Source: Stutzerimonas stutzeri
GTDB lineage: Bacteria > Pseudomonadota > Gammaproteobacteria > Pseudomonadales > Pseudomonadaceae
DNA length: 64,000 nucleotides
Assembly (NCBI RefSeq): GCF_018138085.1
Contig: NZ_CP073105.1
Span: 1,984,001-2,048,000, forward strand
Reading direction: 5' to 3'
A program made the translations under genes and the position numbers. A model generated the notes under the pieces. It did no database searches, had not been told where the DNA came from, and saw nothing but the letters and a program-made list of their open reading frames with translations. Positions 6,036 to 47,272 of the stretch are shown here, piece by piece. The number at the start of each line of letters is the position of its first letter. Within the stretch, counting starts at the first letter, position 1.

Positions 6036-7880
6036 TCAGAGCAGAACGACGCCGAGCAACAGCACGGCTCCGCCAACGATGGACAGGGCGTACCAGCGCA
6101 ACTGGCCGGTTTCGCTGCGGCTCAACAGGGCATGGCCACCACGTGCCGTACGCGGAATCAGGCCGATGGTGGCATCGACAGGATCGCGGGCGAGCAGCCG
6201 GGTCAGCCACAGATAGGGCTGGACGAAGAGCTTGTCGTAGAGCCAGTCGAAGCCCCAGGCGGCGTACCACCAGGCCGTCAGGAAGCGCCCGGGCGCGCTC
6301 TGCGCCAATGCAGTCACCAGGCCACGCTTGCCGAGGAACAGCATGGCGGCGAGCAGGATGCCGGCCAGGGCGATGGCCCCTGAAGCGATTTCCAGACTGT
6401 GCTTGGCTTCACCGCCGGCATGCCCGACGCTTTCCGGCAGGACTCCGGCCAGCGGCGGCGCGATCAAGGCGCCGACGAACGTCGACAGCAGGATCAGCAC
6501 CACCAGCGGCACGCTGTGTGCCATACCGTGGCCGGCGTGGGCCTCGACCTTCGCTTCGCCGTGGAAGGCGATGAAGATCAGTCGGAAGGTGTACAGCGAG
6601 GTCAGGAAAGCGCCCGCCAAGCCGGCGTAGAGTAAACCGCTGTGACCGCTGGCGAAGGCTTCCCAGAGAATCTCGTCCTTGGAATAGAAACCGGCGGTGA
6701 CCAGTGGCAACGCCGCCAGCGCCGAGCCGCCGACGATGAAGCTCGCGTAGGCCAGCGGCAGTTTCCGCCACAGCCCGCCCATCCTGAAAATGTTCTGCTC
6801 GTGATGGCAGGCGTGGATCACCGCGCCGGAGGCGAGGAACAGCAGGGCCTTGAAGAACGCGTGGGTCATCAGGTGGAAAATCGCCGCGTCCCAGGCACCG
6901 ACGCCGAGCGCCAGGAACATGTAGCCGATCTGGCTCATGGTCGAGTAGGCGAGGATGCGCTTGATGTCGGTCTGCACCAGCGCGGCGAAGCCCGCCAGTA
7001 CCAGCGTCACACCGCCGACGATGCCGACCAGCTCGTGCACGTCCGGTGCGAGCAGGAACAGTCCGTGGGTGCGGGCGATCAGGTAGACGCCGGCGGTGAC
7101 CATGGTTGCCGCATGGATCAGCGCGGAAACCGGGGTCGGACCGGCCATGGCATCGGCCAGCCAGGTCTGCAGCGGCAGCTGCGCCGACTTGCCGACCGCG
7201 CCGCCGAGCAGTGCCAGGGTCGCCAACGTGATCCAGAGATCGCCGCTGGCGAACTTCTGCGGCGCCAGCACCAGCAGCTGCTGGATATCCAGCGTGCCGA
7301 GCTGGACGAAGAGGATGAACAGACCGAAGGCCATCAGCACGTCGCCGATGCGAGTCACGATGAAGGCCTTGAGCGCGGCATTACCGTTCTTGCGCTCCTT
7401 GAAGTAGAAGCCGATCAGCAGATACGAGCACAGTCCGACGCCTTCCCAGCCGAAGTACAGCAGCAGCAGGTTGTCGCCCAGTACCAGCAGCAACATGCTG
7501 AAAATGAACAGGTTGGTGTAGGCGAAAAAGCGCGAGTAGCCCTCTTCACCGCGCATGTACCAGCTGGCGAACAGGTGGATGAGAAAGCCCACCCCGGTCA
7601 CCACGCCGAGCATCGTAAGTGACAAACCGTCCAGGTGCAGGCCGAAGGCGACGCTGAAACCCGCCACGTCCAGCCACTGCCAGAGGTGCTGGGTAAACAC
7701 GCCATCGACGGGCGGCGTGGTATTGAACTGCCAGATGCACAGCGCCGCGATCAGCGCCGACAGGCCGACCGAGCCGACGCCGATCGTGGCGGCGAGGTTT
7801 TCGGATATCCGTCCGCGCGAGAAGGCCAGCAGGAAGTAGCCGAGCAGCGGAAAAACGAAGGTCAGGAATAATAGGTTCAT
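6036..7880 (-). CDS. nuoL: NADH-quinone oxidoreductase subunit L
   Basis: 614-residue antiporter-like subunit of complex I, with a large N-terminal proton-channel domain and a C-terminal extension that forms the lateral helix in the family. Visible motifs: [21 protein letters not shown] (about residues 130-150), [20 protein letters not shown] and [20 protein letters not shown]. The ATG at 7880 ([10 protein letters not shown]) overlaps the nuoK stop by four bases, so the two are translationally coupled. A longer open frame running to 8567 is only readthrough in the same frame. Confidence 0.95.
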
Positions 7881-18248: not shown

Positions 18249-19007
18249 TCAGGCCGCGCTGCCATTGGCTTGTTTCACTCGACCGTCGCCATAAGTCCCC
18301 TGTGTCGCTGCCACTTCACCGATGACCAGGATCGCCGGGCTCTTGAGTTGGAAGCGTGCCGCGTCGACGCACAGGGCGGCGAGGGTGGAGCGGCGTTCGC
18401 GCTGCTGTGGCAGGGACGCGTTTTCGATCATGGCCACCGGCGTGCTCGCCGGCAAGCCGCCTTCGATCAGGCCGTTCTGCACCTGCTGCAAACTGCTCAC
18501 ACCCATATACACGACCAGTGTCGTGCCGCTCTTCGCCAGCGCATGCCACTCGGGGCTGCTGCCGTCGAGCGTATGCGCGGTGACCAGCGTCACGCCGCGG
18601 GCAATACCGCGCTGGGTCAGGGATATCCCGCACTGGGTGGCGCCCGCCAGCCCTGCGGTGATGCCGTTGACCATTTCCACTTCGATGCCGCGCTCGGCCA
18701 GCCATTCGGCTTCTTCGCCGCCGCGGCCGAAGATGCATGGATCGCCGCCTTTCAGGCGTACGACGCACTTCCCCTGACGGGCGTAGCGCAGCATCAGTCG
18801 GTGAATGAAGGCCTGCGGGGTCGAGCGGCAGCCGCCGCGCTTGCCCACCGGGATCACCCGCGCGGTCGGGCAATGTTCGAGCACGGCGGGATTGACCAGA
18901 TCGTCGATCAGCACCACCTGCGCCTCGTCCATGGCGCGCACGGCCTTGAGCGTCAGCAGTTCCGGGTCGCCAGGACCTGCGCCAACCAGCCAGACTTTTG
19001 CGCTCAT
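18249..19007 (-). CDS. cobA: Uroporphyrinogen-III C-methyltransferase (SUMT)
   Basis: 252-residue stand-alone SAM-dependent enzyme that methylates uroporphyrinogen III at C2 and C7 to give precorrin-2, the precursor of siroheme and cobalamin. Signatures: VWLVGAGPGDPELLTLKA at the N-terminus, VVRLKGGDPCIFGRGGEEA in the middle, and GVTLVTAHTLDG and VVYMGV for SAM binding. The start is at MSAKVWLVGAG with AGAGGTGG seven bases upstream; the longer open frame is not homologous. As the last gene after nirB-nirD-nasA, it likely supplies siroheme for NirB. It lacks the CysG dehydrogenase/chelatase domains. Confidence 0.93.
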   Translation of the reverse strand: MSAKVWLVGAGPGDPELLTLKAVRAMDEAQVVLIDDLVNPAVLEHCPTARVIPVGKRGGCRSTPQAFIHRLMLRYARQGKCVVRLKGGDPCIFGRGGEEAEWLAERGIEVEMVNGITAGLAGATQCGISLTQRGIARGVTLVTAHTLDGSSPEWHALAKSGTTLVVYMGVSSLQQVQNGLIEGGLPASTPVAMIENASLPQQRERRSTLAALCVDAARFQLKSPAILVIGEVAATQGTYGDGRVKQANGSAA

Positions 19008-19078: not shown

Positions 19079-21778
19079 TCAAGCCACTGCGGGCGTCTTC
19101 ACCAGCAGTCGCTTGATTTCCGGTACGCAGGAGCCGCAGCTGGTGCCGCAGCCCAGTTCTTTCTTCAAGCCATTCAGATCCAGCCCTTGGTCGATGCCGG
19201 CGCAGATCGCCTCCTGACTGACGTTCATGCAGTTGCACAGCGTCTTGGCGGTCTTGAATTCGCTGCCACCTGGAGGGGTGCTCAGCGGCGCGAGCATCCA
19301 GCGGCGCAGGGCTGCGTCGGCCTTGCCGTCGTGCCAGAGGGTTTTCAGCCAGTGACGCGCGGCCGTCTCGCCGGAAAGGCTCAGGGCAACGATGCGGCCT
19401 TCATCGATCCGGACCCGCTTGCCGACTGCGCGCCGCGGATCGTCGTAGGCCACTACGGGACCTTCGTCGAGCCCCAGCAACTGATCGAATCGCGCCAGCT
19501 GCGCGGCGCTGGGTGCCTCGGTGCAAGCCGCTCTAATGACCAGCGCCGGGCGCTCACGCCCGGCCAGGCTGAAGCTTGCGTAGGCGAAGCCTTCGAACAG
19601 CGGGCGCAGGGCTTCGAAGCGCTGCTGCACCGCGCCTTCGACCAGGGCAAAGAACTGCCAGGGCAGCTCGACCGCTTCCACTTCGATTCCGGCGTGCTTG
19701 AGCTCGGGTTGTTTCGACAGAGGATCGGAGGCGGGCAGGCTGAGGACATTCACGCCCAGCCCCCTGAGAAAACGATCGCCCCAATGCATGGGCACGAACG
19801 CCTGGCCGACCCGCAGGCTGTCGTCCTTCTGCACCGGCAGCACCAGATGGCCGCGACGGCTTCTGATTCTGACTAACTGACCGTCGAGCAGACGACGGCG
19901 GCGCATGTCGTCGGCGTTCATGCCGAGGACCGCTTCTTCCACATGACCGAATAACCGCGCGGCGGTGCCGGTGCGGCTCATGCCGTGCCAGTGGTCGCGC
20001 AGACGACCCGTGTTGAGGATCAGCGGAAAGCGCGCCTCGCGCTTTTCCTGCGGCGCCTGGTAATGCTCGGCGAGAAAGCGTGCCCGGCCATTTTCGGTTG
20101 GAAACACTCCATCGCCGTAGAGCCGCGGCGTGCCTCGCTCGCTGCCGTCAGGGAACGGCCACTGCTGCGGGCCGAGCTGGTCGATCAGCGCGTGGCTGAG
20201 CCCGGACAGATCCAGATCGCGGCCCTGGGTGAGCAGCTTGTATTCCTCGAACAGCGCGGCGGCGCTATCGAACGCGAACAGGCTGGCCTGGCCGGGGCGC
20301 ATCAGCTTTTCCAGACGGCGAGCGAAGTCGCAGGTGATCGACCAGTCGGCGCGGGCCTCGCCAGGGGCCGGGACGGCGGCGCGCACGTGGCTGACGCGAC
20401 GCTCGGAGTTGGTCACAGTGCCTTCCTTCTCGCCCCAACTGGCGGCGGGCAGCAGCAGGTCCGCGTAGCGACAGGTCTCGGTGGTGAAGAAGGCTTCCTG
20501 AACCACGACGAAGGGGCAAGCGGCCAAGGCTTCGTGAATCTTCCGCTGATCCGGCATGGATTGAGCGGGGTTGGTGCAGGCGATCCACAGCGCCTTGATC
20601 CGCCCGCTGTGCACGGCGTCGAACAGTTCGATGGCGGAAAGTCCGGTGGTTTCGGGCAGCCTGTCGACACCCCAATACGCCGCGACTTCGGCACGATGCG
20701 CGGGGTTGCCGGCTTCGCGATGACCGGGCAGCAGGTTGGACAGGCTGCCGGTTTCGCGGCCGCCCATGGCGTTGGGTTGGCCGGTCAGCGAGAAGGGCCC
20801 GGCGCCGGTGCGGCCAATCTGTCCGGTGGCCAGATGCAGGTTGATCAGCGCGCTGTTCTTGGTGCTGCCCGAACTCGACTGGTTCACGCCCATGCACCAG
20901 AGCGACAGAAAGCTCGGCGCGTTGCCGATCATCCGTGCACAGCTTTGCAGTTCGTTCACGCTGATGCCGCACAGGTCGGCGACCATCGACGGGTTGTAGT
21001 CGCGCGCGAGGTGCTTCAAGTCATCGAAGCCGTCGGCGTGGGCATCGATGAAGTCCCGGTCGATCCAGCCTTCCCACAGCAGCAGATGCAGAATGCCGTG
21101 GAACAAGGCGACATCCGTTCCCGGCAGGATGCCGAGGTGCAGGTCGGCCAGTTCGCAGGTGTCGGTGCGGCGCGGATCGACGACGATGACCTTCATCTCC
21201 GGCCGCTTCGCTTTGGCGTCTTCCAGGCGGCGAAACAATACCGGGTGGGCATAGGCCATGTTGCTGCCGACGATCAGCACGCAGTCGCTCTGCTCGATGT
21301 CCTCGTAGCTGCAGGGTGGCGCGTCGGCGCCGAGGCTGCGCTTGTAGCCGACCACCGCAGAAGACATGCACAGGCGGGAATTCGAGTCGATGTTGTGGGT
21401 GCCGACCAGCGCGCGGGCGAGCTTGTTGAAGGCGTAATAGTCCTCGGTCAGCAGCTGGCCGGAGATATAGAACGCGACGCTGTCGGGGCCGTGTTCGGCA
21501 ATGGTTTCGGCAAACACCTTGGCGGCGTGATCCAGGGCGCTGTCCCAGTCGGTGCGGGCACGGGCCAGGCCCTTGCCCAGGCGCAGTTCGGGGTAGAGCG
21601 CACGGGCGTCGAGGTCGCCGGTCAGGTGCAGGGTCGAGCCCTTGCTGCACAGCTTGCCGAAGTTGGCCGGGTGGTTCGGGTCGCCGGCGACATCGAGGAT
21701 GCGCTCGCCGTCGTGCTCGATCAGTACACCGCAGCCCACGCCGCAGTAGCAGCAGGTCGAGGCGGTTGTCTGGCGCAT
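19079..21778 (-). CDS. nasA: Assimilatory nitrate reductase catalytic subunit
   Basis: 899-residue cytoplasmic molybdoenzyme that reduces nitrate to nitrite. An N-terminal [4Fe-4S] motif (CCYCGVGCGVLIE with GKLCSKGS) is followed by the molybdopterin-oxidoreductase domain with bis-MGD contacts (SRLCMSSAVVGYKR, GSNMAYAHPV, WCMGVNQSSSGS, GRETGSLSN). The C-terminal dinucleotide-binding domain contains NTGRLRDHWHGMSRTG. The last roughly 60 residues form a BFD-like [2Fe-2S] domain (TLCNCMNVSQ and CGTSCGSC), found in some assimilatory enzymes as an electron entry. The start at 21778 (MRQTTASTCC) follows AGGAGA; the upstream ATG at 21805 lacks a binding site. It lies 50 bases after nirD. Confidence 0.93.
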   Translation of the reverse strand: MRQTTASTCCYCGVGCGVLIEHDGERILDVAGDPNHPANFGKLCSKGSTLHLTGDLDARALYPELRLGKGLARARTDWDSALDHAAKVFAETIAEHGPDSVAFYISGQLLTEDYYAFNKLARALVGTHNIDSNSRLCMSSAVVGYKRSLGADAPPCSYEDIEQSDCVLIVGSNMAYAHPVLFRRLEDAKAKRPEMKVIVVDPRRTDTCELADLHLGILPGTDVALFHGILHLLLWEGWIDRDFIDAHADGFDDLKHLARDYNPSMVADLCGISVNELQSCARMIGNAPSFLSLWCMGVNQSSSGSTKNSALINLHLATGQIGRTGAGPFSLTGQPNAMGGRETGSLSNLLPGHREAGNPAHRAEVAAYWGVDRLPETTGLSAIELFDAVHSGRIKALWIACTNPAQSMPDQRKIHEALAACPFVVVQEAFFTTETCRYADLLLPAASWGEKEGTVTNSERRVSHVRAAVPAPGEARADWSITCDFARRLEKLMRPGQASLFAFDSAAALFEEYKLLTQGRDLDLSGLSHALIDQLGPQQWPFPDGSERGTPRLYGDGVFPTENGRARFLAEHYQAPQEKREARFPLILNTGRLRDHWHGMSRTGTAARLFGHVEEAVLGMNADDMRRRRLLDGQLVRIRSRRGHLVLPVQKDDSLRVGQAFVPMHWGDRFLRGLGVNVLSLPASDPLSKQPELKHAGIEVEAVELPWQFFALVEGAVQQRFEALRPLFEGFAYASFSLAGRERPALVIRAACTEAPSAAQLARFDQLLGLDEGPVVAYDDPRRAVGKRVRIDEGRIVALSLSGETAARHWLKTLWHDGKADAALRRWMLAPLSTPPGGSEFKTAKTLCNCMNVSQEAICAGIDQGLDLNGLKKELGCGTSCGSCVPEIKRLLVKTPAVA

Positions 21779-21828
21779 GGCGTCGTCTCCTGGCAATTCG
21801 TTCATGGATGGGCTCGCTGGCGCCGCAG

Positions 21829-22155
21829 TCAGGCGCACTCGGTTGCGCTATTCAGCGAGAGCAGCACGCGGCCGTTCTCGACGCGGGCTTCGTGGCGATG
21901 CGCACAGCCCACGTCGGGCGCCACGGCTTCGCCGCTGTCCAGGTTGATTTGCCAGTTATGCAGCGGGCAGGCGACCTGCTTGCCGAAGACGATGCCTTGC
22001 GACAGCGGACCGCCCTTGTGCGGGCAGCGGTCGTCCAATGCGAAGACTTGATCATCCGCGGTGCGGAACACCGCGATGTCGCCCTTGGGGCCGGCGACGA
22101 TGCGTGCGCCGAGCGGGTTGATCTCGTCCAGGGAGCAGATGTCGAACAAGGTCAT
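21829..22155 (-). CDS. nirD: Nitrite reductase (NADH) small subunit
   Basis: 108-residue Rieske-type protein, the small subunit of the cytoplasmic NADH nitrite reductase NirBD. The Rieske ligands are present: CPHKGGPLSQG and CPLHNWQINL. It lies 44 bases after nirB and before nasA, in one assimilatory operon. Confidence 0.94.
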   Translation of the reverse strand: MTLFDICSLDEINPLGARIVAGPKGDIAVFRTADDQVFALDDRCPHKGGPLSQGIVFGKQVACPLHNWQINLDSGEAVAPDVGCAHRHEARVENGRVLLSLNSATECA

Positions 22156-22199: not shown

Positions 22200-24650
22200 T
22201 CAGGCGGGCTCGATCGATTTGAGCTGGATCGTTTCGTATTCCTTTTTCAGCGACTGTTCCGCGATGGCCTTCTTCCAGCCGTCGCCCTCGAAGCTCAGCG
22301 AATACATCAGGCGCTGACTCAGGGCCTTGCGCCGGGCTTCATCTTCCAGAACGGACTTCTTGATGTAGTCCAGCCCCACGCGCTGCATGTAATGCACGGT
22401 GCGCTCCAGGTAGAAGGCCTCTTCGCGGTACAGCTGGAGGAAGGCGAAGCTGTACTCGGCGACTTCCCCGGCCGTCCTGACCTTGACGAAGAACTCGCCG
22501 GCCTCGGTCTTGATGCCGCCGTTGCCGCCGATGTACAGCTCCCAGCCGGAATCCACGCCGATGATGCCGACGTCCTTGATGCCGGATTCGGCGCAGTTGC
22601 GCGGGCAGGCGGAGACGGCGAGCTTGACCTTGTGCGGCGAGTACATGCCGAACAGGGCCTTTTCCAGCTCGATGCCCAGTTGCGTCGAATTCTGCGTGCC
22701 GAAGCGGCAGAACTCCTGCCCGACGCAGGTCTTCACGGTGCGGATGGATTTGCCATAGGCGTGGCCGTCGGGCATGTCCAGATCCTTCCAGACGTTCGGC
22801 AGATCGTCTTTCCTGATCCCCAGCAGGTCGATGCGCTGGCCGCCGGTGACCTTGACCATCGGCACCTGGTATTTGTCGGCGACATCGGCGATGCGGCGCA
22901 GCTCGGCGGCATTGGTCACGCCGCCGAACATGCGCGGCACCACCGAGTAGGTGCCGTCCTTCTGGATGTTGGCGTGGGCGCGCTCGTTGATGAAGCGCGA
23001 CTGCGGGTCGTCCTTGGCTTCGCCGGGCCAGGTGGAAATCAGGTAATAGTTCAGCGCGGGCCGGCAGGTCGCGCAGCCGTTGGGCGTGTGCCAGTCCATG
23101 AAGGCCATGGCGTCCGGAACGGTCAGCAGGTGATGGTCACGAATGGCCTTGCGCACCTGGCCGTGGTTGAGTTCGCTGCAGCCGCAAATGGCCTTCTCGC
23201 TTTTCGGCTTGACGTCCGCCGCACCACCGACGGTGTTCATCAGGATCTGCTCGACCAAGCCTGCGCAGGACCCGCAGGAGCTGGCGGCCTTGGTGTGCTT
23301 CTTCACGTCGTCGACGGAAAACAGGCCGTGTTCCTGGATCGCCTTGACGATGGTGCCCTTGCATACGCCGTTGCAGCCGCAGACTTCCATGCTATCGGGC
23401 ATGGCCATGGCCTTGTTCTGACCCTGGTGGCCGGTGTCGCCGATGGCGCCTTCGCCAAACATCAGGTGGTCGCGGATCTGCGCCACGTTGTGGTTTTCAC
23501 GAACCTGACGGAAATACCAGCCGCCATCGGCCGTGTCGCCGTAGAGGCAGGCACCGACGAGGATGTCGTCCTTGATCACCAGCTTCTTGTAGACGCCGCC
23601 GATGGGGTCGGAAAGGGTGATCGTTTCCGTGCCTTCGCCGCCAATGAAGTCTCCGGCGGAAAACAGGTCGATGCCGGTGACCTTGAGCTTGGTCGAGGTG
23701 ACCGAGCCGAGATAGCGAGAAAAGCCGAGCATCGCCAAGTGGTTGGCGCAAACTTTCGCCTGTTCGAACAGCGGGGCGACCAAGCCGTAGGCGGTGCCAC
23801 GATGGTTGGCGCACTCGCCAACGGCATACACGCGCGGATCGTAGGTTTGCAGGGTGTCGTTGACCAGGATTCCGCGGTTGCAGGGAATGCCGGCTTTCTC
23901 GGCCAGCGCGCTGTTCGGGCGGATGCCGGCGGCCATTACCACCAGATCGGCATCGATCACCTCGCCATCGGCGAAGCGCACGGCGCGGATACGGCCCTGC
24001 GCGTTGCCGATCAGCTCGGCGGTCTGCTTTTGCATCTTGAAGCACAGGCCACGGCTTTCGAGCGCCTGCTGCAGCAAGGTTCCTGCGGTCTTGTCGAGCT
24101 GGCGCTCCATCGGCCATTCGCCGATGTGCACCACGGTGACCTCCATGCCGCGTAGCTTCAAGCCGTTGGCCGCTTCCAGACCCAGCAACCCGCCGCCGAT
24201 GACCACGGCGTGCTTGTGGGTCTTGGCTGCGTCCATCATCGCCTGGGTATCGGCGATATCGCGGTAGCCGATTACTCCGTCGAGCTGGTTGCCGGGAATC
24301 GGCAGGATGAAGGGGTTGGAGCCGGTCGCGATGAGCAGGCGGTCGTATTCGGCTTCGCTGCCGTCCTCGGCGATGACGCGGCGCTTGGCGCGATCGATCT
24401 CTACCACCTTGCGGTTGAGCATCAGCCGGATGTTGTGCTCGGCGTACCAGTCGAGGTCGTTGAGTACGATCTCCTCGAAGGTCTGCTCACCCGCGAGGAC
24501 CGGCGAAAGCAGGATGCGGTTGTAGTTGGGATGGGGCTCGGCACCGAACACGGTGATGTCGTAGAGGTCGGGGGCGAGCTTGAGCAGTTCTTCCAGGGTG
24601 CGAACCCCGGCCATGCCGTTGCCGATCATCACCAGTTTGAGTTTTTTCAT
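22200..24650 (-). CDS. nirB: Nitrite reductase (NADH) large subunit
   Basis: 816-residue FAD/NADH-dependent siroheme enzyme that reduces nitrite to ammonium. Order: an FAD/NAD(P) oxidoreductase domain (LVMIGNGMAGVRTLEELL at the start, ATGSNPFILPIPG, VVIGGGLLGLEAANGL); two BFD-like [2Fe-2S] segments (VCGCNGVCKGTI..SCGSC and ICGCSEL..CATC); and a nitrite/sulfite reductase domain with the siroheme-[4Fe-4S] ligands (CVGQEFCRFG and ACPRNCAESG). The start at 24650 has GGAGAACGGC upstream. The leader carries a sigma-54 promoter, an ANTAR-type hairpin and a terminator, so expression is probably gated by NtrC/RpoN and by NasT. Confidence 0.95.
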   Translation of the reverse strand: MKKLKLVMIGNGMAGVRTLEELLKLAPDLYDITVFGAEPHPNYNRILLSPVLAGEQTFEEIVLNDLDWYAEHNIRLMLNRKVVEIDRAKRRVIAEDGSEAEYDRLLIATGSNPFILPIPGNQLDGVIGYRDIADTQAMMDAAKTHKHAVVIGGGLLGLEAANGLKLRGMEVTVVHIGEWPMERQLDKTAGTLLQQALESRGLCFKMQKQTAELIGNAQGRIRAVRFADGEVIDADLVVMAAGIRPNSALAEKAGIPCNRGILVNDTLQTYDPRVYAVGECANHRGTAYGLVAPLFEQAKVCANHLAMLGFSRYLGSVTSTKLKVTGIDLFSAGDFIGGEGTETITLSDPIGGVYKKLVIKDDILVGACLYGDTADGGWYFRQVRENHNVAQIRDHLMFGEGAIGDTGHQGQNKAMAMPDSMEVCGCNGVCKGTIVKAIQEHGLFSVDDVKKHTKAASSCGSCAGLVEQILMNTVGGAADVKPKSEKAICGCSELNHGQVRKAIRDHHLLTVPDAMAFMDWHTPNGCATCRPALNYYLISTWPGEAKDDPQSRFINERAHANIQKDGTYSVVPRMFGGVTNAAELRRIADVADKYQVPMVKVTGGQRIDLLGIRKDDLPNVWKDLDMPDGHAYGKSIRTVKTCVGQEFCRFGTQNSTQLGIELEKALFGMYSPHKVKLAVSACPRNCAESGIKDVGIIGVDSGWELYIGGNGGIKTEAGEFFVKVRTAGEVAEYSFAFLQLYREEAFYLERTVHYMQRVGLDYIKKSVLEDEARRKALSQRLMYSLSFEGDGWKKAIAEQSLKKEYETIQLKSIEPA

Positions 24651-24715
24651 GCCGTTCTCCGCGCCGGGCCGACGGCTGATTGCTGCCTGGCCATGCCGTT
24701 GAAAATCCAACAACG

Positions 24716-24755
24716 AAAAAAGGCGTCCCACTGGTTACCCAGTGAGGACGCCTTT
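24716..24755 (-). terminator. Intrinsic terminator in the nirB leader (attenuator)
   Basis: On the minus strand AAAGGCGTCC and CACTGG pair with CCAGTG and GGACGCCTTT across a GTAA loop (24738-24735), with one unpaired T. This gives about 16 base pairs followed by a T-run (24721-24716). It lies between the promoter and the nirB start (65 bases upstream of the ATG). A stem this strong in a 5' leader implies transcription of nirB needs antitermination. Confidence 0.9.
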
Positions 24756-24776
24756 GTCCTTGTCTTCCGTATTCGG

Positions 24777-24806
24777 AGCCCGGCCCTCTACGTTGAAGGC
24801 CCGGCT
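24777..24806 (-). promoter_or_regulatory. ANTAR-type hairpin in the nirB leader (NasT target)
   Basis: On the minus strand AGCCGGGCCTTC (24806-24795) pairs with GAGGGCCGGGCT (24788-24777), with one G-G mismatch and one G-U pair. They enclose the hexanucleotide loop AACGTA (24794-24789). A at loop position 1 and G at position 4 are the features recognised by ANTAR-domain proteins. The attenuator stem begins 21 bases downstream, as in the Klebsiella nasF leader. Predicted target of the NasT encoded at 29525-30103. Confidence 0.75.
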
Positions 24807-24824
24807 TGATGTTGAACCTGGCAA

Positions 24825-24840
24825 TGCAGAGGCTGTGCCA
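24825..24840 (-). promoter_or_regulatory. Sigma-54 (RpoN) promoter of nirB
   Basis: The minus strand reads TGGCACAGCCTCTGCA, against the consensus TGGCACGNNNNTTGCW: GG and GC are at exactly the -24/-12 spacing. Predicted transcription start near 24814, giving a leader of about 165 nucleotides. The match with the transporter promoter at 28690-28705 is very close. Confidence 0.85.
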
Positions 24841-24905: not shown

Positions 24906-24942
24906 TGCACCCATATGATGCGCACCGCGCAGCGCTGGTGCA
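24906..24942. promoter_or_regulatory. Candidate NtrC enhancer half-sites
   Basis: TGCACC at 24906-24911, CGCACC at 24921-24926 and GGTGCA at 24937-24942 resemble NtrC half-sites and lie 65-115 bases upstream of the sigma-54 element. No perfect 17-bp dyad with 5-bp spacing is present, so this is tentative. Confidence 0.3.
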
Positions 24943-25471: not shown

Positions 25472-27145
25472 CTAACTGCCTTTGCCCAGCCAGACCAGCA
25501 AAATCACGTTGAGCAGCAGCGAGAGCAGGGCGAGGCCGCGCCAGACCTTCAAGGGCTCTCGTTCGAGCAACGGCAGCGCAGGCGCGTTGCCGGTCAGGCG
25601 CTCGCCCTGTTCCAGGGTCAGCAGCCATTCTTCCGCCGTTTCGAAGCGCTGCGCGGGCTCCACTGCAACGGCGCGCTTGAGCATGTCATCCAGCCACGGG
25701 GACAGGTCGGGGCGGTAGCGGCTGGCCGGCACCGGAGTGCCGAAGCGGGGGCGCTGGAAGGCTTCGATTTCGCCGTACGGGTAATGGCCGGTCAGTAGGT
25801 AGGAGAGCGTGACGCCAGCCGCGTAGAGGTCCTGTTCCCGGCTCGGAGACGCTCCGGCGAAAGCCTCCGGAGCGATATAGCTCGGCGTACCGGGCAGGTT
25901 GTGCGGCAGGTCCTGGGACAGGCCTGGGCAATAGGCCAGGCCGAAGTCCAGCAGGCGCAGCTCGCCATCGTCGTCCAGATGAAGGTTTTCCGGCTTGATG
26001 TCGCGATGCAGGATGTTGCGCCTGTGCAGCATGCCCAGCGCGTGGATTAGGCGCGACGCCAGCTGCAACCAGTCGGCCAGCGCCATCGGGCCCTGTTGGC
26101 CGAACTGCTGGGCGAGGGTCTGGCCGCTGTATTCGCGCTGCACGTAATACAGATGCTGACGCTGGGGCAGGCCGTGGGTTTCTGGAAAGTGTCGACCGGC
26201 AACGCGGCGCAGAAACCATTCTTCCTGCAGCAGCGCAGGGCCGGCGTCCGGTTCGTCATCGCGGCTGGGCGGCAGCGTCTTCAATATCCAGGGTTGACCG
26301 TGCTGATCGCTGACCCGGTAAACGAGCGATTGCCGCGACTCGACCAGCAACGTCTCGACCGTCCAGCCTTCGAATACCTGAGCCGGCCGCAGCCTGGGCG
26401 GCAACGGCCAGTCCGCCAGTTGCGCGAGCGAGTCGGCCAGCGCTGCTTCTGGCAGCTCATCGACCCGTAGCAGCAATGCGCTGGCATTGTCCTGGCTGCC
26501 GCTCTGATGAGCGAGGTTGACCAGTGCTTTGGCTGCGTTGGACAGGTCGGGCTCGGCACCAAGGATGTTCTGTATATCGCCCTCGGTAATGCTGGCCCAG
26601 ATGCCGTCGGTGAGCAGCATGAAGGTTTCGCCGAGACGCAGTTCGCCGTCGAGGTAATCCACTACCAGGTGCTGGTCCAGACCCATGGCACGCTTGAGCA
26701 CGTGCTGCATGTTCGGATGTTCCCAGACGTGGTCTTCGCTTAGCCGTTGCAGCTCACCGTCGAGCCAGCGGTAGGCGCGGCAATCGCCGACATGGGCGAG
26801 GGTGAAGCGCCGACCGCGCAGCACCAGCGCCGTCAATGTGGTCAGCAGCGGCTGCCCTCCACCGTTGGCTTGCAGCCAACGATTGTGCGCCACCAGCAGC
26901 CGATCCAGTGATTGCGCGACGGTCCAGGTTTCCGGCGTGGCGTAGTAATCGGTCGCCAGCGCCTGCAAGGTGGCCCGTGCCGCCAGGCCGCCATCGGCAC
27001 ATTGACTGACACCATCGGCGATGGCGAACAGCGCCCCCTTACTCGCGGCGAGACCCGGTGTCGGCGTGACGATGCGCAGCGCGTCCTGGTTCTCTTCGCG
27101 AGGGCCGGTGGCAGTGGCTTCGCCGAACGAAAACTGCAAGGGCAT
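25472..27145 (-). CDS. PP2C phosphatase / Ser-Thr protein kinase fusion, membrane-anchored
   Basis: 557-residue bifunctional signalling protein. Residues about 1-250 are a PP2C phosphatase with its metal-binding aspartates (EENQDALRI, IADGVSQCADGG, HVGDCRAYRW, LLTDGIWAS, SQDNASALL). Residues about 260-500 are a Hanks-type kinase (ILKTLPP lysine, LHRDIKPENLHLDDDG catalytic loop, LLDFGLAY, GTPSYIAPEAF). The glycine-rich loop is degenerate (VESRQSLVYRV). One C-terminal TM helix (LLSLLLNVILLVWLG, about 535-550) puts the catalytic domains in the cytoplasm. It follows the nitrate transporter by 91 bases, and this gene order recurs in pseudomonads. A role in nitrate uptake or reduction is inference. 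Confidence 0.9.
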   Translation of the reverse strand: MPLQFSFGEATATGPREENQDALRIVTPTPGLAASKGALFAIADGVSQCADGGLAARATLQALATDYYATPETWTVAQSLDRLLVAHNRWLQANGGGQPLLTTLTALVLRGRRFTLAHVGDCRAYRWLDGELQRLSEDHVWEHPNMQHVLKRAMGLDQHLVVDYLDGELRLGETFMLLTDGIWASITEGDIQNILGAEPDLSNAAKALVNLAHQSGSQDNASALLLRVDELPEAALADSLAQLADWPLPPRLRPAQVFEGWTVETLLVESRQSLVYRVSDQHGQPWILKTLPPSRDDEPDAGPALLQEEWFLRRVAGRHFPETHGLPQRQHLYYVQREYSGQTLAQQFGQQGPMALADWLQLASRLIHALGMLHRRNILHRDIKPENLHLDDDGELRLLDFGLAYCPGLSQDLPHNLPGTPSYIAPEAFAGASPSREQDLYAAGVTLSYLLTGHYPYGEIEAFQRPRFGTPVPASRYRPDLSPWLDDMLKRAVAVEPAQRFETAEEWLLTLEQGERLTGNAPALPLLEREPLKVWRGLALLSLLLNVILLVWLGKGS

Positions 27146-27236: not shown

Positions 27237-28448
27237 TCAAACGCGCGCGGCAGTCATCGCCGCGGAACCCCAGGTGGTCCTCCAACGGCGCTTGACCCCA
27301 TAGAGGCCAAACCAGGCCAGCGCACCCAGACTGGCGAACAGCCAGAGGCCCATCTGATAGTCGCCGGTGGCCTGCTTGACGGCGCCAAGCCCCGCGGTGA
27401 GCAGGAAGCCGCCGATACCGCCCGCCATGCCGACCAGCCCGGTCATCACGCCGATTTCCTTGTTGAAGCGCTGCGGCACCAGCTGAAACACCGCACCGTT
27501 ACCGGCGCCGAGGCTGAGCATCGCGACCACGAACAGGGCCAGCGCAGCCGTCGAGCTGGGCAAGTTGAAGCCCACCACGAACAGACAGGCAGCCGCAACC
27601 GTATACATCACCAGCAGCGAGCGGATGCCGCCGATGCGGTCGGCCAGTGCACCGCCCAGCGGACGCAGCATGCTGCCGGCGAACACGCAGGCGGCGGTGT
27701 AATAGCCGGCCTTGACCGGATCGAAAGCGTACTGGTCGTGGAAATAGCCGGGCAGGGTGCTGGCCAGGCCAAGGAAGCCGCCGAAGGTCACGCTGTAGAA
27801 GAACATGAACCACCAGCTGTCTCGGTCCCCGAGGGCTTTCATATAGTCGGCGAAGGATTTCGGTGCCGGACGGTTCGGTGCGTTCTTGGCCTGAGTGGCG
27901 AAGATGATCAGCACCAGCACCAGCGGAATCAGCGCCAGACCGAACACGTTGCTCCAGCCAAACATGGTCGCCAGCATCGGAGCGAACAGTGCCGCGAACA
28001 CGGTACCGGAGTTGCCTGCACCGGCGATACCCATGGCCTTGCCCTGATGCTGCGGCGGATACCACTGCGAGGCCAGCGGCAACGCGACGGCAAAGGAGGC
28101 GCCTGCCATGCCCAGGAACAGCCCCAGCAGCAACGCCTGCTCATAGCTGTGCACGCCGTACAGCCAGGCGATGAACAACGCGACGATCACCACCACTTGC
28201 CCGAACAGTCCGGCCGTCTTCGGCGAGGTGCGGTCGGCCAGCATGCCCAGCACGAGGCGCAAAACGGCGCCTGAGAGGATTGGCGTGGCGACCATGAAGG
28301 CACGTTGTTGGGTGGTCAGACCGAGATCGGCAGCGATCTGCACGCCCAGCGGACCGAGCACATACCAGACCATGAAACTCAGATCGAAGTAGAGAAAGGC
28401 GGAGAACAATGTCGGTGTATGGCCGGATTTCCAGAAACTCGTATTCAT
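27237..28448 (-). CDS. MFS nitrate/nitrite transporter (NarK/NasA family)
   Basis: 403-residue, 12-TM inner-membrane transporter of the nitrate/nitrite porter family. The signature GMAGASFAVALPLASQWYPP and the glycine-rich nitrate signature GAGNSGTVFAALFAPML are both present, with a second nitrate-signature-like segment GAGNGAVFQLVPQRF in the C-terminal half. The start is at MNTSFWKSGHTP (28448) with GAGGTG upstream. The leader carries a sigma-54 promoter, an ANTAR hairpin and an intrinsic terminator, marking it as the assimilatory uptake system. The name nasA is sometimes used for this gene in pseudomonads; I leave the symbol blank to avoid confusion with the reductase. Confidence 0.92.
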   Translation of the reverse strand: MNTSFWKSGHTPTLFSAFLYFDLSFMVWYVLGPLGVQIAADLGLTTQQRAFMVATPILSGAVLRLVLGMLADRTSPKTAGLFGQVVVIVALFIAWLYGVHSYEQALLLGLFLGMAGASFAVALPLASQWYPPQHQGKAMGIAGAGNSGTVFAALFAPMLATMFGWSNVFGLALIPLVLVLIIFATQAKNAPNRPAPKSFADYMKALGDRDSWWFMFFYSVTFGGFLGLASTLPGYFHDQYAFDPVKAGYYTAACVFAGSMLRPLGGALADRIGGIRSLLVMYTVAAACLFVVGFNLPSSTAALALFVVAMLSLGAGNGAVFQLVPQRFNKEIGVMTGLVGMAGGIGGFLLTAGLGAVKQATGDYQMGLWLFASLGALAWFGLYGVKRRWRTTWGSAAMTAARV

Positions 28449-28590: not shown

Positions 28591-28645
28591 AAAAAAAAGC
28601 GCCGCGAAACCGCCGTCAGTCTCAACGGGGCAACGCGACGCCTTT
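28591..28645 (-). terminator. Intrinsic terminator in the transporter leader (attenuator)
   Basis: On the minus strand AAAG-GCGTCGCG (28645-28634) pairs with CGCGGCGC (28606-28599), including one U-G wobble. An eight-base T-run (28598-28591) follows. The loop is long (28633-28607) and may form an internal CCGT/ACGG hairpin. It lies in the 5' leader, 142 bases before the start codon. Confidence 0.85.
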
Positions 28646-28657
28646 GTCATGTCTGTG

Positions 28658-28677
28658 AGTAACCGCCTTTGGCTACC
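28658..28677 (-). promoter_or_regulatory. ANTAR-type hairpin in the transporter leader (NasT target)
   Basis: On the minus strand GGTAGCC (28677-28671) pairs with GGTTACT (28664-28658), with G-U wobbles. They enclose the hexaloop AAAGGC (28670-28665), with A at position 1 and G at position 4 as in ANTAR target RNAs. The terminator stem begins 12 bases downstream. Same layout as the nirB leader. Confidence 0.75.
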
Positions 28678-28689
28678 TGTCTCGGGATA

Positions 28690-28705
28690 AGCAGGAGCTG
28701 TGCCA
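28690..28705 (-). promoter_or_regulatory. Sigma-54 (RpoN) promoter of the nitrate transporter gene
   Basis: The minus strand reads TGGCACAGCTCCTGCT, with GG and GC at -24/-12 spacing and the same TGGCACA core as the nirB promoter. Predicted start near 28679, just upstream of the ANTAR hairpin, giving a leader of about 230 nucleotides. Confidence 0.85.
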
Positions 28706-28808: not shown

Positions 28809-29252
28809 TCAGGCGATGCGATTGACCTTTGGAAATTTCGCCTCGAACTCGGCTGGCATGGGCACCACCTGCGTGTCCAGATAGTTGTAAAAAACGAAGC
28901 CCGACTTGGCCATGGCGATCAGCGTGTCGTCGGCGGGGCGGGTAATGCGGAAGGTGATGTCGCCGCCGTACGGGTTGAAATCCATCACGCCGACTTCGAA
29001 CAACAAGGCGTCCCGTGCATGGGCCTCGGCTTTGTAGGTGGTGGCCAGGTCGGTGACGATGATGCCGCTGCCGTCCTTGCTGGTCTCGGCGATGCCGTAG
29101 GCGAACAGGAAGCGAGCGCGGGCTTCGGAAATCATCGAGATCATCGAGTCGTTGGCCAGGTGGTTGCCGGCGTTGATGTCGGTGATGCGGACGGTCAATT
29201 GGGTGGAAAAGCAGAACTGGTCTTCGGGGAACTGCAGGGTCAGGCGGGCCAT
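28809..29252 (-). CDS. Acyl-CoA thioesterase family protein (hotdog fold)
   Basis: 147-residue protein resembling 4-hydroxybenzoyl-CoA/YbgC-type thioesterases. Hotdog features are visible: VRITDINAGNHLANDSM (catalytic-region loop with Asp-x-x-x-x-x-Asn-His), ARARFLFAYGI, and YKAEAHARDALLFEVGV. The start MARLTLQFPED (29252) was chosen because the upstream extension is arginine-rich and non-homologous. It lies between nasT and the transporter leader on the same strand. Its substrate and link to nitrate are unknown. Confidence 0.8.
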   Translation of the reverse strand: MARLTLQFPEDQFCFSTQLTVRITDINAGNHLANDSMISMISEARARFLFAYGIAETSKDGSGIIVTDLATTYKAEAHARDALLFEVGVMDFNPYGGDITFRITRPADDTLIAMAKSGFVFYNYLDTQVVPMPAEFEAKFPKVNRIA

Positions 29253-29524
29253 GGTGCTCTCGTAGTGCTGAAGGCGTGGTGCGAGGCGTTGACCATGGGC
29301 CGGCGCGACGCGGGCGCCGATTCTACGCGTCCGCCCAGCTGGCCCAAGCATGATTCAACGGATTGATGTCCCTGGCCGCACCCTCGGCGTTCACGTGAAG
29401 CTGTGGCAGGACGAGCGACGGGATCAACGCGCGTGGCCTTCGGCACGCTGCGACCAGCGACTGGCGCGAAACGCAGAGTCATGACGCCGATCGCCGTCGG
29501 GGATGGCGCTGGCTGGACGCGATG

Positions 29525-30103
29525 TCATTGCCCCAGCAGATCGTTCATCGCGATGATCTGCTCGGCGACCTGGATCAGCTTCTGCTGGCGGCTCATGGCC
29601 TGGCGGCGCATCAGCGTGTAGGCCTCTTCTTCGTTGCAGCTGCGCATCTTCATCAGCATGCCCTTGGCCAGTTCTATGCGCTTGCGTTCGACTAGTTGCT
29701 GGTCGCGCGCATGCAGTTGCGCACGGATCGCCTGGTCGCTTTCGAAGCGGGCCATGGCGACGTCGAGGATGGGTTTCAGGCGCTGGGCCTGAATGCCCTC
29801 GACGATATAGGCGCTGACACCGGCGCGGATCGCCTGGCGCATGGCGTCGGGATTGCTGTCATCGGTGAACATGACGATGGGCCGCGGCTGGTCGCGGGTG
29901 ACCATCACCACCTGTTCCATCACATCTCGGCCGGGGGAGTCGGTGTCGATCAGCACCACGTCGGGGCGTATGGCCTCGACCCGCTCGGGCAGATCGATGG
30001 TCAGGCCGGATTCCTCGATCACCTCGAAGCCGGCTTCTATCAGGGCGGTGCGCAGGCGGCCGACCTTGCGTGGAGTGTCGTCGATCAGGAGGACGCGAAG
30101 CAT
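29525..30103 (-). CDS. nasT: ANTAR-domain response regulator, nitrate antiterminator NasT
   Basis: 192-residue protein. An N-terminal receiver-like domain (MLRVLLIDDTPRKVGR; phosphoacceptor region VVLIDTDSPGRDVMEQ) is followed by a C-terminal ANTAR RNA-binding domain (about residues 130-190; ELAKGMLMKMRSCNEEEAYT and LMRRQAMSRQQKLIQVAEQI). NasT binds leader RNA to prevent termination when released by NasS in the presence of nitrate or nitrite (established for Azotobacter and Paracoccus-type systems). The start at MLRVLL (30103) has GGGAGA upstream; an ATG 18 bases earlier overlaps the nasS stop but fits homologs less well. Its targets are probably the two leaders at 24.8 and 28.7 kb. Confidence 0.93.
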   Translation of the reverse strand: MLRVLLIDDTPRKVGRLRTALIEAGFEVIEESGLTIDLPERVEAIRPDVVLIDTDSPGRDVMEQVVMVTRDQPRPIVMFTDDSNPDAMRQAIRAGVSAYIVEGIQAQRLKPILDVAMARFESDQAIRAQLHARDQQLVERKRIELAKGMLMKMRSCNEEEAYTLMRRQAMSRQQKLIQVAEQIIAMNDLLGQ

Positions 30104-30117
30104 GGCTGTCTCCCTCT

Positions 30118-31344
30118 TCAAGGCTTGCTGATGAGCGGCGGCGCCGTGTCCGCTATCGCATGCAGGGCGAAGCTGCGTGCATAGCCGGCGGGGTCGCTGC
30201 CATTCCAGTGGCTGCCGTCCATCAGCGTGGCGCTGCGCATCGGCGAGTCGGGTACCGCAATCTGCAGCGCTGTCGCCGCATCGCGGTAGAGGCCGGTCTG
30301 CTGGATACGCTGCGCCACGGCCAGGTAGTCAGGGTCTTCACGCAAAAGGCCCCAGCGCCGCAGTTGGGTCATGAACCAGAGACCGTCGGAATGGTAGGGC
30401 ATGCTCACGTCGCCGTTGCCGAAGAAACGCAGCGGGTGCTCGTCCATCCAGGCGTGCCCGAGCCCGTCTTGATACTGGCCAAGAAAGCGCGGCTCGATGG
30501 CGGCCACGGGCGCATCGAGATAGTCGCTGCCGGCGATCAGTCGTGCCGTGCTGCGCCGGTTTTCCGGACTCGCGTCGATGAAGCGACTGGCTTCCAGAAC
30601 GGCCATGACCAACGCGCGAGCCGTGTTGGGGTACTGGTCGACGAACTCGCGGGTACAGGCAAGGACCTTCTCCGGATGGTCGGCCCAGATCGATTGGCTG
30701 GTCGCGACGGTGTAGCCCAGGTTTTCGTCGACGGCCAATGCGCCCCAGGGCTCGCCGGCACAGAACCCGTCGATGCGGCGCGCGCGCAGATGGGCGACCA
30801 TCCGCGACGGCGGCACCACCAGGGTGCGCACGTCATCGAGTGGATGAATGCCGTGAGCGGCGAGCCAGTAGTAGAGCCAGAGGGCATGAGTTCCGGTCGG
30901 GAAGGTCTGTGCCAGGGTGAGCTTCGCACCACTGTGGCGCACGCTGCGGCGCAGGGCGTCAGGGTCGATCACGCCAGCGGCTTTCAGCTCGCTGGACAGG
31001 CTGATGCTTTGGCCGTTCTGCGCCAGCCCCATGAGCACGGCCATGTCCCTGCGCGGGCCGCCACTGATACCCAGGTGTACGGCATAGATCAGACCGTAAA
31101 GGCCGTGGGCGGCATCCAGCTCGCCACCCACCAATTTGTCGCGCACGCTGGACCACGAACACTGCCGCCGGAGGTTGAGCGTAAGCCCATACGGCTGGGC
31201 GAAGCCCTGGGTGGCCGCGACGATCAGCGAGGCCGCATCGGTCAGCGCCATGAAGCCAAGCTCGACGACGCGCTTTTCCGGCGCGTCGCTGCCGGCAACC
31301 CAGGCCAGCGGATCAGGCATTACGGGTGTGTTGGAAAGAGGCAT
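30118..31344 (-). CDS. nasS: Nitrate/nitrite sensor NasS (NrtA-like)
   Basis: 408-residue protein of the NrtA/SsuA-like substrate-binding fold, without a signal peptide, so cytoplasmic. Segments: VELGFMALTDAASLIVAATQ, VRDKLVGGELDAAHGLYGLI, DDVRTLVVPPSRMVAHLRAR, DGFCAGEPWGALAVDENLG. NasS binds nitrate/nitrite and sequesters NasT in its absence. The start MPLSNTPVMPDP at 31344 has GAAGG upstream. The frame stays open far upstream, but only through the REPIN array, and that part is not protein-like. The nasT start follows 14 bases after its stop. Confidence 0.92.
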   Translation of the reverse strand: MPLSNTPVMPDPLAWVAGSDAPEKRVVELGFMALTDAASLIVAATQGFAQPYGLTLNLRRQCSWSSVRDKLVGGELDAAHGLYGLIYAVHLGISGGPRRDMAVLMGLAQNGQSISLSSELKAAGVIDPDALRRSVRHSGAKLTLAQTFPTGTHALWLYYWLAAHGIHPLDDVRTLVVPPSRMVAHLRARRIDGFCAGEPWGALAVDENLGYTVATSQSIWADHPEKVLACTREFVDQYPNTARALVMAVLEASRFIDASPENRRSTARLIAGSDYLDAPVAAIEPRFLGQYQDGLGHAWMDEHPLRFFGNGDVSMPYHSDGLWFMTQLRRWGLLREDPDYLAVAQRIQQTGLYRDAATALQIAVPDSPMRSATLMDGSHWNGSDPAGYARSFALHAIADTAPPLISKP

Positions 31345-31449
31345 ACGGGCAGGACCTTCGACAGGCACACATCGCGGGGAAGCGACTCGGTGCGAATAAA
31401 TCATGAGTCTTGCGAAGCAAGCGACATGCCAATGCCCTGGCTCCCAATG

Positions 31450-31967
31450 TGGGGCGGCGTGCACTGCTTTTTGTGGGAGGCCCGACCTCGGGCCGAAGCT
31501 CTTCCCGCACCGAGCTGGCGCCATTCGCCGCGGGTCGCGCCTCCCACAATTGGGGAGGCGTGCACCGCTGTTTTTTTTTGTGGGAGGTCCGACCTCGGGC
31601 CGAAGCTTTTTCAGGCACCGAGCTGGCGCCGTTCGCCGCGGGTCGCGGCTCCCACAATGGGAGCGGCGTGCACTGCTTTTTTGTGGGAGGCCCGACCTCG
31701 GGCCGAAGCTTTTTCGGGCACCCGAGCTGGCGCCATTCGCCGCGGGTCGCGGCTCCCACAAATGAGGGTGGCATGCACTGCTTTTTGTGGGAGGCCCGAC
31801 CTCGGGGCGAAGCTTTTTCGGGCACCGAGCTGGCGTCGTTCGCCGCGGGTCGCGGCTCCTACAAATGAGGGCGGCGTGCACTGCTTTTTTGTGGGACGCC
31901 CGACCCGGGGCGAAGCTTTTCGGGCACAGAGCTGGCGCCATTCGTCGCGAGGGCGCGCCTCGCACAA
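31450..31967. repeat. Tandem array of five REPIN-like units, about 104 bp period
   Basis: Five head-to-tail units whose GTGGGAGG-type 5' ends start at 31473, 31580, 31683, 31787 and 31891 (spacings 107, 103, 104, 104). Each unit contains GTGGGAGGCCCGACCTCGGG at one end and a GCCGCGGGTCGCG-x-CTCCCAC element in opposite orientation about 65-70 bases on, so each is an inverted REP pair. A linker with a GTGCACTG-T(5-9) stretch joins the units. The last copy is the most diverged (GTGGGACGCC). The array fills the nasS-batD gap. Confidence 0.9.
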
Positions 31968-46921: not shown

Positions 46922-47272
46922 TGGGTATTGCCCTCAGTGGTTGACTGGTGTTCCTGTTGACCTCATGGCGAGATCGGCAGATAGACTGCCAGCGAAGCCC
47001 CGTTGCCGGCGTGACGGGGTTCTACCGGGCATCGTTGCGATGCCGGTCTGTGTCGAGTTCTAACCCAAATGCTTCGGGCGCGGGAATGATCGTTTTGTAA
47101 TAAGCAAGTAACCAAACCGTGGTGCTGCCCATAAGGCGCGTGAGACGTGCTCTCGCTGCCGCCTCGGCACGCTACGTTGCATTAGCTTCTCGACGAAAAC
47201 GGTCGAAGCCGTACCCCTATCGAAATCGGATCCGCACGCGCTGCCGCGTGGATCGAATACTCTGGAAATGCC
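46922..47272. other. Divergent intergenic region, rmf / rlmKL, with two hairpins
   Basis: About 350 bases that should carry both promoters. Two adjacent hairpins are visible: GCCCCGT (46997-47003) with ACGGGGT (47014-47020), and ACCGGGCATCG (47024-47034) with CGATGCCGGT (47038-47047). They could lie in the rmf leader or be a small RNA; no terminator T-run follows. No other gene is seen. Confidence 0.45.

Follow-up and report, generated by a model that had tools for sequence, protein, structure and literature searches.

NasT antitermination reportedly acts at the nasAB leader of Azotobacter vinelandii, where it controls a nitrate-assimilation operon. In Pseudomonas aeruginosa, NalA is described as the leader of the nirBD-PA1779-cobA operon, where RpoN, NtrC and NasT exert control by antitermination (PMC8092218, PMC3973561, PMC9196836, PMC12830290), and one review cites work in P. 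putida in which c-di-GMP was reported to weaken NasT-NalA binding (PMC12830290). In the model set out by Ramesh 2012 for such leaders, the terminator has a second hairpin at its 5' base (PMC3369931).

Here we analyzed a window of 64,000 nucleotides of Stutzerimonas stutzeri DNA, in which a leader with these traits lies before nirB. A preliminary description of this leader had traced the circuit to Klebsiella and Azotobacter, which is correct but incomplete, as Pseudomonas itself has the same circuit. It had also taken the leader to be apparently unannotated; this was wrong, since the Rfam family RF00625 (P11) covers the whole element, which sits directly before nirBD-nitrate reductase-cobA (Table 1). 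From their position, we infer that P11 and NalA are one element. The nirB leader of the window is thus a NalA/P11 leader, ordinary for its family, and its circuit is already known. As far as the published accounts describe it, the P. aeruginosa NalA/P11 shares with the window the operon order, the sigma-54 promoter, an AACG.. hexaloop, the terminator and the AAAGGC sequence of the second hexaloop hairpin (P2). The two differ in hairpin B, for which the Rfam P11 consensus has uCCcG AuaGAA CgGGa; the middle AuaGAA hexaloop is absent in the window, where a tetraloop (AAUA) takes its place, but this is a variable feature and not decisive for membership.

Table 1. Features of the nirB, transporter and nasS-nasT region of the window
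Feature	Coordinates	Strand	Basis or detail
cobA, uroporphyrinogen-III C-methyltransferase	18249-19007 (start by eye)	-	TIGR01469
Assimilatory nitrate reductase, molybdopterin enzyme	19079-21838 (ORF; true start probably further in)	-	Molybdopterin, Fer2_BFD
nirD, nitrite reductase small subunit	21829-22155	-	TIGR02378
nirB, nitrite reductase large subunit	22200-24650 (start 24650)	-	TIGR02374, 937.8 bits
Rfam RF00625 (P11) match	24852-24722	-	96.9 bits, threshold 70, E 1e-19, model 1-139/139
Sigma-54 (-24/-12) promoter of nirB leader, TGGCACAGCCTCTGCA	24840-24825	-	GG-GC spacing 10 bases
Hairpin A (first hexaloop)	24805-24778; loop AACGUA (A1 + G4) 24794-24789	-	folding
Hairpin B, tetraloop here (UCCG AAUA CGGA)	24777-24766	-	leader comparison
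Hairpin C = P2 (AGGAC AAAGGC GUCCU)	24760-24745; A1/G4 hexaloop 24755-24750	-	scan + folding
Intrinsic terminator, loop GUAA	24752-24722; T run (six T) 24721-24716	-	folding
Two NtrC-like candidate sites	24906-24922 (10/12 consensus bases), 24926-24942 (9/12)	.	consensus scan
NarK-family nitrate/nitrite transporter gene, behind second leader	27237-28448	-	TIGR00886, 315.5 bits
Second leader, sigma-54/ANTAR/terminator	28705-28591	-	scan, folding, Rfam
Sigma-54 box of second leader, TGGCACAGCTCCTGCT	28705-28690	-	scan
P1 hexaloop AAAGGC of second leader, 7 bp	28670-28665	-	scan + folding
P2 hexaloop AAAGGC of second leader, 4 bp	28645-28640	-	scan + folding
Rfam RF03032 narK RNA match	28635-28704	-	56.6 bits, threshold 43.2
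nasT, receiver-like + ANTAR domain	29525-30103	-	domain match
nasS, NMT1-like NasT partner	30118-31344	-	PF13379
Sigma-54 box before nasS-nasT, TGGCATGTCGCTTGCT, top-scoring in window	31431-31416	-	scan

Operon and promoter of the nirB leader

The order nirB-nirD-nitrate reductase-cobA, given in the preliminary description, was found as claimed, with the nitrate reductase falling short of the equivalog cut-offs for NasA and NasC. A gene for a fused PP2C phosphatase and Ser/Thr protein kinase (25472-27145, minus strand) separates the nirB leader from the transporter gene. In a DNA-level plasmid search, the matches listed (10 of 196 records) covered the nirB coding sequence and not the leader. 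Elsewhere in the window, an rmf RNA leader was matched at 46940-47067 on the minus strand (RF01755, 82.6 bits).

The sigma-54 promoter that had been proposed before nirB is borne out: the GG and GC of TGGCACAGCCTCTGCA are 10 bases apart, as in a -24/-12 box, and the box falls inside the Rfam P11 model. Counting 12 bases past the -12 C, transcription is predicted to start at about 24814-24813, upstream of hairpin A. A sigma-54 box scoring at least 9/12 occurred at most 360 bases before nirB in all 122 extracted loci (95 distinct leaders), which were picked via P11, narK or NasT matches and are not a random sample.

The consensus TGCACC-N5-GGTGCA was used for NtrC. The two sites that resemble it are 20 bp apart, centered 74 and 94 bp ahead of the -24 box of nirB; among 400 random stretches of 350 bp from the window, 13 reached a best score of at least 10. 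The best score upstream of nirB was 10 or 11 in 22 of 32 Stutzerimonas loci and 9 in the other 10, kinship being ignored. Best scores in the window were 8/12 before the transporter gene and 9/12 before nasS, not unusual given a background of 97/400 for scores of at least 9, and such scores were found in 19/36 (transporter) and 19/39 (nasS) Stutzerimonas loci, somewhat above background when kinship is ignored. For P. protegens Cab57, the authors reported seeing no NtrC motif (PMC3973561).

Hairpins and terminator of the nirB leader

Folding of the reverse-strand 165-nt leader gave the hairpin and the terminator, at -79.8 kcal/mol compared to -54.3 +/- 3.9 in 200 shuffles (z -6.6, none of the 200 as good). 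The AACGTA hexaloop with A1 and G4 was present as initially described, but its stem has 10 pairs (an unbroken run of 7, then a 1x1 mismatch and another 3) instead of 11-12. The strong intrinsic terminator with a GTAA loop was likewise recovered, together with its run of six T. What the preliminary description had omitted, while describing the first hexaloop, is the second hexaloop that a dual-hexaloop mechanism also needs: with hairpin C (P2), which overlaps the terminator, the ANTAR two-hexaloop motif is complete. In the folding model, this hairpin is the antiterminator hexaloop, which excludes the terminator and is excluded by it. As the free leader favors the terminator (-52.4 kcal/mol, compared to -40.9 with P2 enforced), something must hold P2. 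Hairpins A and C are separated by 21 nt, which contain a small hairpin.

Scanning the window for a sigma-54 box with two A1/G4 hexaloop hairpins behind it yielded three sites, compared to 36 in all in 60 Markov-1 random windows (0.6 each). With stems of at least 5 and at least 4 bp, two sites were left in the window and four in the 60 random windows (0.07 each). The third site, at 6367, has stems of only 4 and 3 and was taken as chance.

Conservation of nirB leaders and the middle hairpin

Together with the window, 202 loci supplied a set of 95 distinct nirB leaders. Of these, 92 have AAAGGC as their P2 loop and the other three AAAGGT, and hairpin A has an AAnGnn loop on a stem of at least 3 pairs in 88/95; these loop counts cover all distinct leaders, unlike the pair and column counts. 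The latter come from an alignment (A3) of 68 rows, comprising the window and 67 of 75 nirB segments, from which eight leaders without hairpin B were left out by hand (L067, L075, L077, L098, L099, L100, L129 and L190), so that counts for hairpin B lean upward. The patterns used to pick the segments demand A1 and G4 in P1 and P2, and together with the choice of rows this makes pair and column counts lean towards the structures. Within these limits, A1 and G4 of the hairpin A loop were present in 68/68 rows amid variable neighboring positions, and three of the five hairpin A pairs change on both sides. Taken together, hairpins A, B and C had 94.4% of cells paired and 5/14 pairs changed on both sides, a covariation score that none of 500 shuffles reached. 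The terminator helices were 97.0 and 98.9% paired, with 5/13 pairs changed on both sides. Since the P2 pairs are invariant, and their bases are also held by the terminator, covariation speaks neither for nor against the P2 helix in nirB leaders.

The middle hairpin is variable. When loop letters were ignored, the best hairpin before P2 had a hexaloop in 61 of the 95 leaders (A1 and G4 being present in 58 of these), a tetraloop in 25 and a five-base loop in six, and none was found in three. As 12 of the 25 tetraloops also allow a reading as A1/G4 hexaloops, a hexaloop B is possible in 70/95 leaders and lacking in 25/95. The 70 leaders, found by a search that required A1 and G4, have 14 loop forms, in which A5 is constant though not required and positions 2, 3 and 6 vary; the B-to-C gap is 3 nt in 56 of them, and in 58 the distance from hairpin A to B is 7-10 nt. 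An AAUA tetraloop B closed by CCG/CGG is found in eight distinct leaders, those of the window and its nearest kin, all of which keep the AAnGnn loop of hairpin A. Where B is absent, the A-to-C spacing ranges from 15 to 45 nt. On a NirB tree of 94 of the 95 rows (one was too short), the state of hairpin B needs at least eight changes.

A stronger hairpin A where B is lost was considered from the raw mean stems (6.2 vs 4.8 bp, p 0.0014), but this was unsupported once kinship was taken into account: four independent pairs on supported branches of the NirB tree (eight on all branches) gave, over 200 pairings, on average 0.5 for and 1.4 against, with a median p of 1.

According to the Enterococcus work, EutV fails with a 3-nt or 14-nt linker (Ramesh 2012, PMC3369931), its function is lost with a 20-nt extension, and tetraloops are among the loops kept from binding it (PMC8934654). 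Set against this rule, the 21-nt gap and the tetraloop B mean that, in the clade of the window, either B is stacked within the spacer or the rule holds less strictly; the 3-nt B-to-C gap seen elsewhere misfits it likewise. A wider reading, possible but doubtful to us, is that Pseudomonadaceae nirB leaders are three-hexaloop relays in which NasT would be passed from A to B to C, that B has decayed to a tetraloop in the clade of the window, where NasT would work across a structured 21-nt gap forbidden by the EutV rule, and that narK RNA and P11 are two forms of one NasT regulon, with autoregulation of the sensor present or absent by lineage. The 3-nt B-C gap in 56/70 leaders, as short as the failed EutV linker, argues against the relay.

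A second leader before the transporter gene

The transporter gene is preceded by a second leader, missing from the preliminary description, which is a member of the narK RNA family and resembles the nirB leader in its box, P1 and P2 hexaloops and terminator. Its P1 and P2 are 8 nt apart, and its terminator and T run extend to 28591. Folding again favored the terminator (-39.2 kcal/mol, compared to -29.0 with P2 enforced). Unlike the nirB leader, narK-type leaders have no middle hairpin, and the Rfam RF03032 structure shows P1 alone. The next best narK-type site in this genome scored 17.9 bits after 53.8 and was taken as noise. Between nasT and this leader, a thioesterase-like (4HBT_2) ORF occupies 28809-29351 on the minus strand.

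In narK loci, part of which were picked by narK RNA matches, both hexaloops have A1 and G4 in 110/116 distinct leaders by stem criteria and in 113/116 by motif, and P1 and P2 are 6-8 nt apart in 101 of the 110. An alignment (A2) of 64 of 69 distinct narK segments, with five omitted by hand (L065, L069, L070 and L080 for a longer matched stretch, L058 for a P1 mismatch), had 99.3% of P1 cells paired and five of seven P1 pairs changed on both sides, a signal that was destroyed when the partners were slid; P2 pairs hardly vary. A model of narK P1 and P2 gave a site of at least 44 bits in 28 of 31 Stutzerimonas genomes.

Among 148 genomes of the family, P11 or narK RNA occurs in 112, each of which encodes an ANTAR protein; neither RNA occurs in the 34 that lack such a protein, nor in two (G002 and G088) that have one, kinship being ignored. 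Weak P11 matches of 29 bits in G071, G079 and G054 lie on the opposite strand over P11 and perhaps reflect the terminator palindrome. Among 272 genomes of the class outside the family, narK RNA was matched in 11, one of them above the gathering score. ANTAR proteins were found in 10 of these 11 compared to 75/261 of the others (p 5e-5, kinship ignored), and in all 10, which belong to nine families, the narK RNA is on the same strand as the ANTAR match and 54 nt to 9.2 kb from it (within 210 nt in five). By eye, P1 and P2 motifs were recognized in nine of the 11, P2 being doubtful in G312 and both motifs lacking in G268, whose match (31.4 bits; one of 14 in 13 genomes) shows none of the features and was taken as false.

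That narK RNAs are NasT-type leaders is suggested by their covariation, by their occurring together with ANTAR proteins and by their linkage to ANTAR genes in other families. The second leader of the window is probably a NasT target. The mechanism is not new, given a NasT hairpin predicted at Bradyrhizobium narK (PMC6759348) and the ANTAR hits that Ramesh 2012 listed, in general terms, upstream of genes for nitrate transporters and nitrite reductases (PMC3369931). Bradyrhizobium narK mRNA was nevertheless reported to rise in a nasT mutant (PMC6759348), so that a predicted hairpin is no proof of positive control. Within the literature searched, the phrases 'narK RNA' and 'narK motif' were not found, nor was a link between the narK RNA family and ANTAR proteins.

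NasT, NasS and the nasST leader

The nasT gene, placed about 5 kb away in the preliminary description, encodes an ANTAR-domain NasT 4.7 kb upstream, which was the only ANTAR-domain match in a domain search of the whole genome (5.07 Mb). The protein is identical over 191 residues to NasT of Stutzerimonas stutzeri NT0128, and the next 24 NasT loci among the matches listed comprise 20 named Stutzerimonas and four Pseudomonas.

No ANTAR leader was found before nasS-nasT in the window (31431-31344), nor in any of the 29 distinct nasS leaders of Stutzerimonas, a set defined by the genus in the genome handle or record name, plus L185. Judged by a strict motif, nasS leaders of other genera among loci L063-L202 carry an ANTAR leader in 61 of 81 distinct cases; GAC-A..G..-GTC, counted by eye, is kept in 15 of the remaining 20. 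An alignment (A4) of 52 of the 58 nasS segments, with the longer L078, L089, L090, L100, L102 and L121 left out, showed 84.0% of P1 cells paired and 5/6 P1 pairs changed on both sides; P1 is less clean here than in narK, as 11 of 500 shuffles reached that count of double-changed pairs. These leaders suggest that NasT autoregulation operates in other genera and not in the Stutzerimonas examined, and could be lineage-specific. A leader of this type also precedes a NasS-like gene of about 30% identity, probably the nrtA of a nitrate ABC transporter, in 13 of 14 distinct cases.

Immediately upstream of the nasS promoter, a 103-bp unit is repeated five times in tandem (31445-31967, 86% matches); a 29-base piece of the unit has three exact copies there and one elsewhere in the genome.

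Proposed mechanism and alternatives

NasT antitermination on top of sigma-54 nitrogen control, as originally predicted for nirB, is the best reading of the leader and corresponds to the mechanism reported for NalA at the same place in Pseudomonas. We hold it very likely that Stutzerimonas has here its own copy of the NalA/P11 leader of Pseudomonas, at which NtrC and sigma-54 would start transcription and NasT released by nitrate would antiterminate nirB-nirD-nitrate reductase-cobA, with the same logic at the transporter gene. The evidence consists of the promoter box, the hairpins, their mutual exclusion in the model, conservation, covariation, and ANTAR co-occurrence and linkage; the action of NtrC, the binding of NasT and the response to nitrate we infer from the sequence. 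The invariance of the P2 pairs and the length of the A-to-C spacer count against this reading. When nitrogen is short, phosphorylated NtrC would activate the sigma-54 promoter, and RNA synthesis would begin some 10 bases ahead of hairpin A. In the absence of nitrate, NasT would be held by NasS, the two arms of the terminator (5' arm GGCGUCC) would pair, and the transcript would end at about 95-100 nt. Nitrate or nitrite would free NasT, which would be recruited by hairpin A and hold hairpin C; as the loop and 3' arm of P2 are the 5' arm of the terminator, the latter would be blocked and the operon transcribed. The transporter gene may follow the same logic through its narK-type leader at 28705.

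Rfam lists RF00625 as type 'Gene', and the sigma-54 promoter would yield a terminated product of about 100 nt, as expected if P11 were an independent trans-acting small RNA that the terminator merely ends. We regard this as highly improbable, because the P2 motif GGAC-A..G..-GTC precedes nirB in 95/95 distinct leaders (from loci found via P11, narK or NasT matches), hairpin C makes sense if the terminator must be overcome, and NalA is described as an antitermination leader (PMC12830290, PMC9196836). A stable terminated P11 fragment may, in any case, have a further role. Still less credible, to the point of being negligible, is an ordinary sigma-54 operon whose terminator is partial and constitutive and whose hexaloops arose by chance: A1 and G4 are kept amid variable neighbors, the leader hairpins covary, and no genome without an ANTAR protein among the 148 is positive for P11 or narK RNA.

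A milder departure from NasT recruitment by hairpin A would have NasT antiterminate through hairpin C alone or with another recruiter, hairpin A being only a spacer in this clade. The 21-nt A-to-C gap, beyond the range tolerated by EutV, and the reported binding of EutV to a single hexaloop (PMC8934654) would be in keeping with it, but the conservation of the AAnGnn loop of hairpin A, which extends to all eight leaders with the AAUA tetraloop, makes it unlikely.

Comparison with other ANTAR systems

The window holds the elements of an ANTAR dual-hexaloop system: loops AACGUA and AAAGGC, a second hairpin that overlaps and excludes the terminator, and an encoded ANTAR protein. As reported for the Klebsiella nasF leader with NasR and the Enterococcus eut leaders with EutV, there are two A1/G4 hexaloop hairpins, the second overlapping the terminator. 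The regulator differs: in the window it would be NasT with NasS, in the case of NasR it is a protein with a NIT domain and in that of EutV a phosphorylated response regulator. The spacer of the nirB leader is also longer than in the nasF and eut leaders and is structured: its 21-nt linker is outside the 5-12 nt reported for E. faecalis eut and inside the 2-25 nt that an actinobacteria survey used as its criterion. A. vinelandii is also reported to use NasT antitermination, but for a different operon.

The nirB leader represents a documented circuit, so its value lies in being a natural variant. Leaders of the family with three, two or rearranged hexaloops and one regulator provide a ready comparison for how an ANTAR protein is transferred from the recruiting to the antiterminating hairpin, and the same variety bears on how strict the ANTAR spacing rule is. 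Placing narK RNA among NasT-type leaders proposes a function for this Rfam family and would allow nitrate-assimilation regulons to be predicted from sequence in further Gammaproteobacteria. To the preliminary description, the present analysis adds P2, the second leader, the link between narK RNA and ANTAR proteins, and the variability of the middle hairpin.
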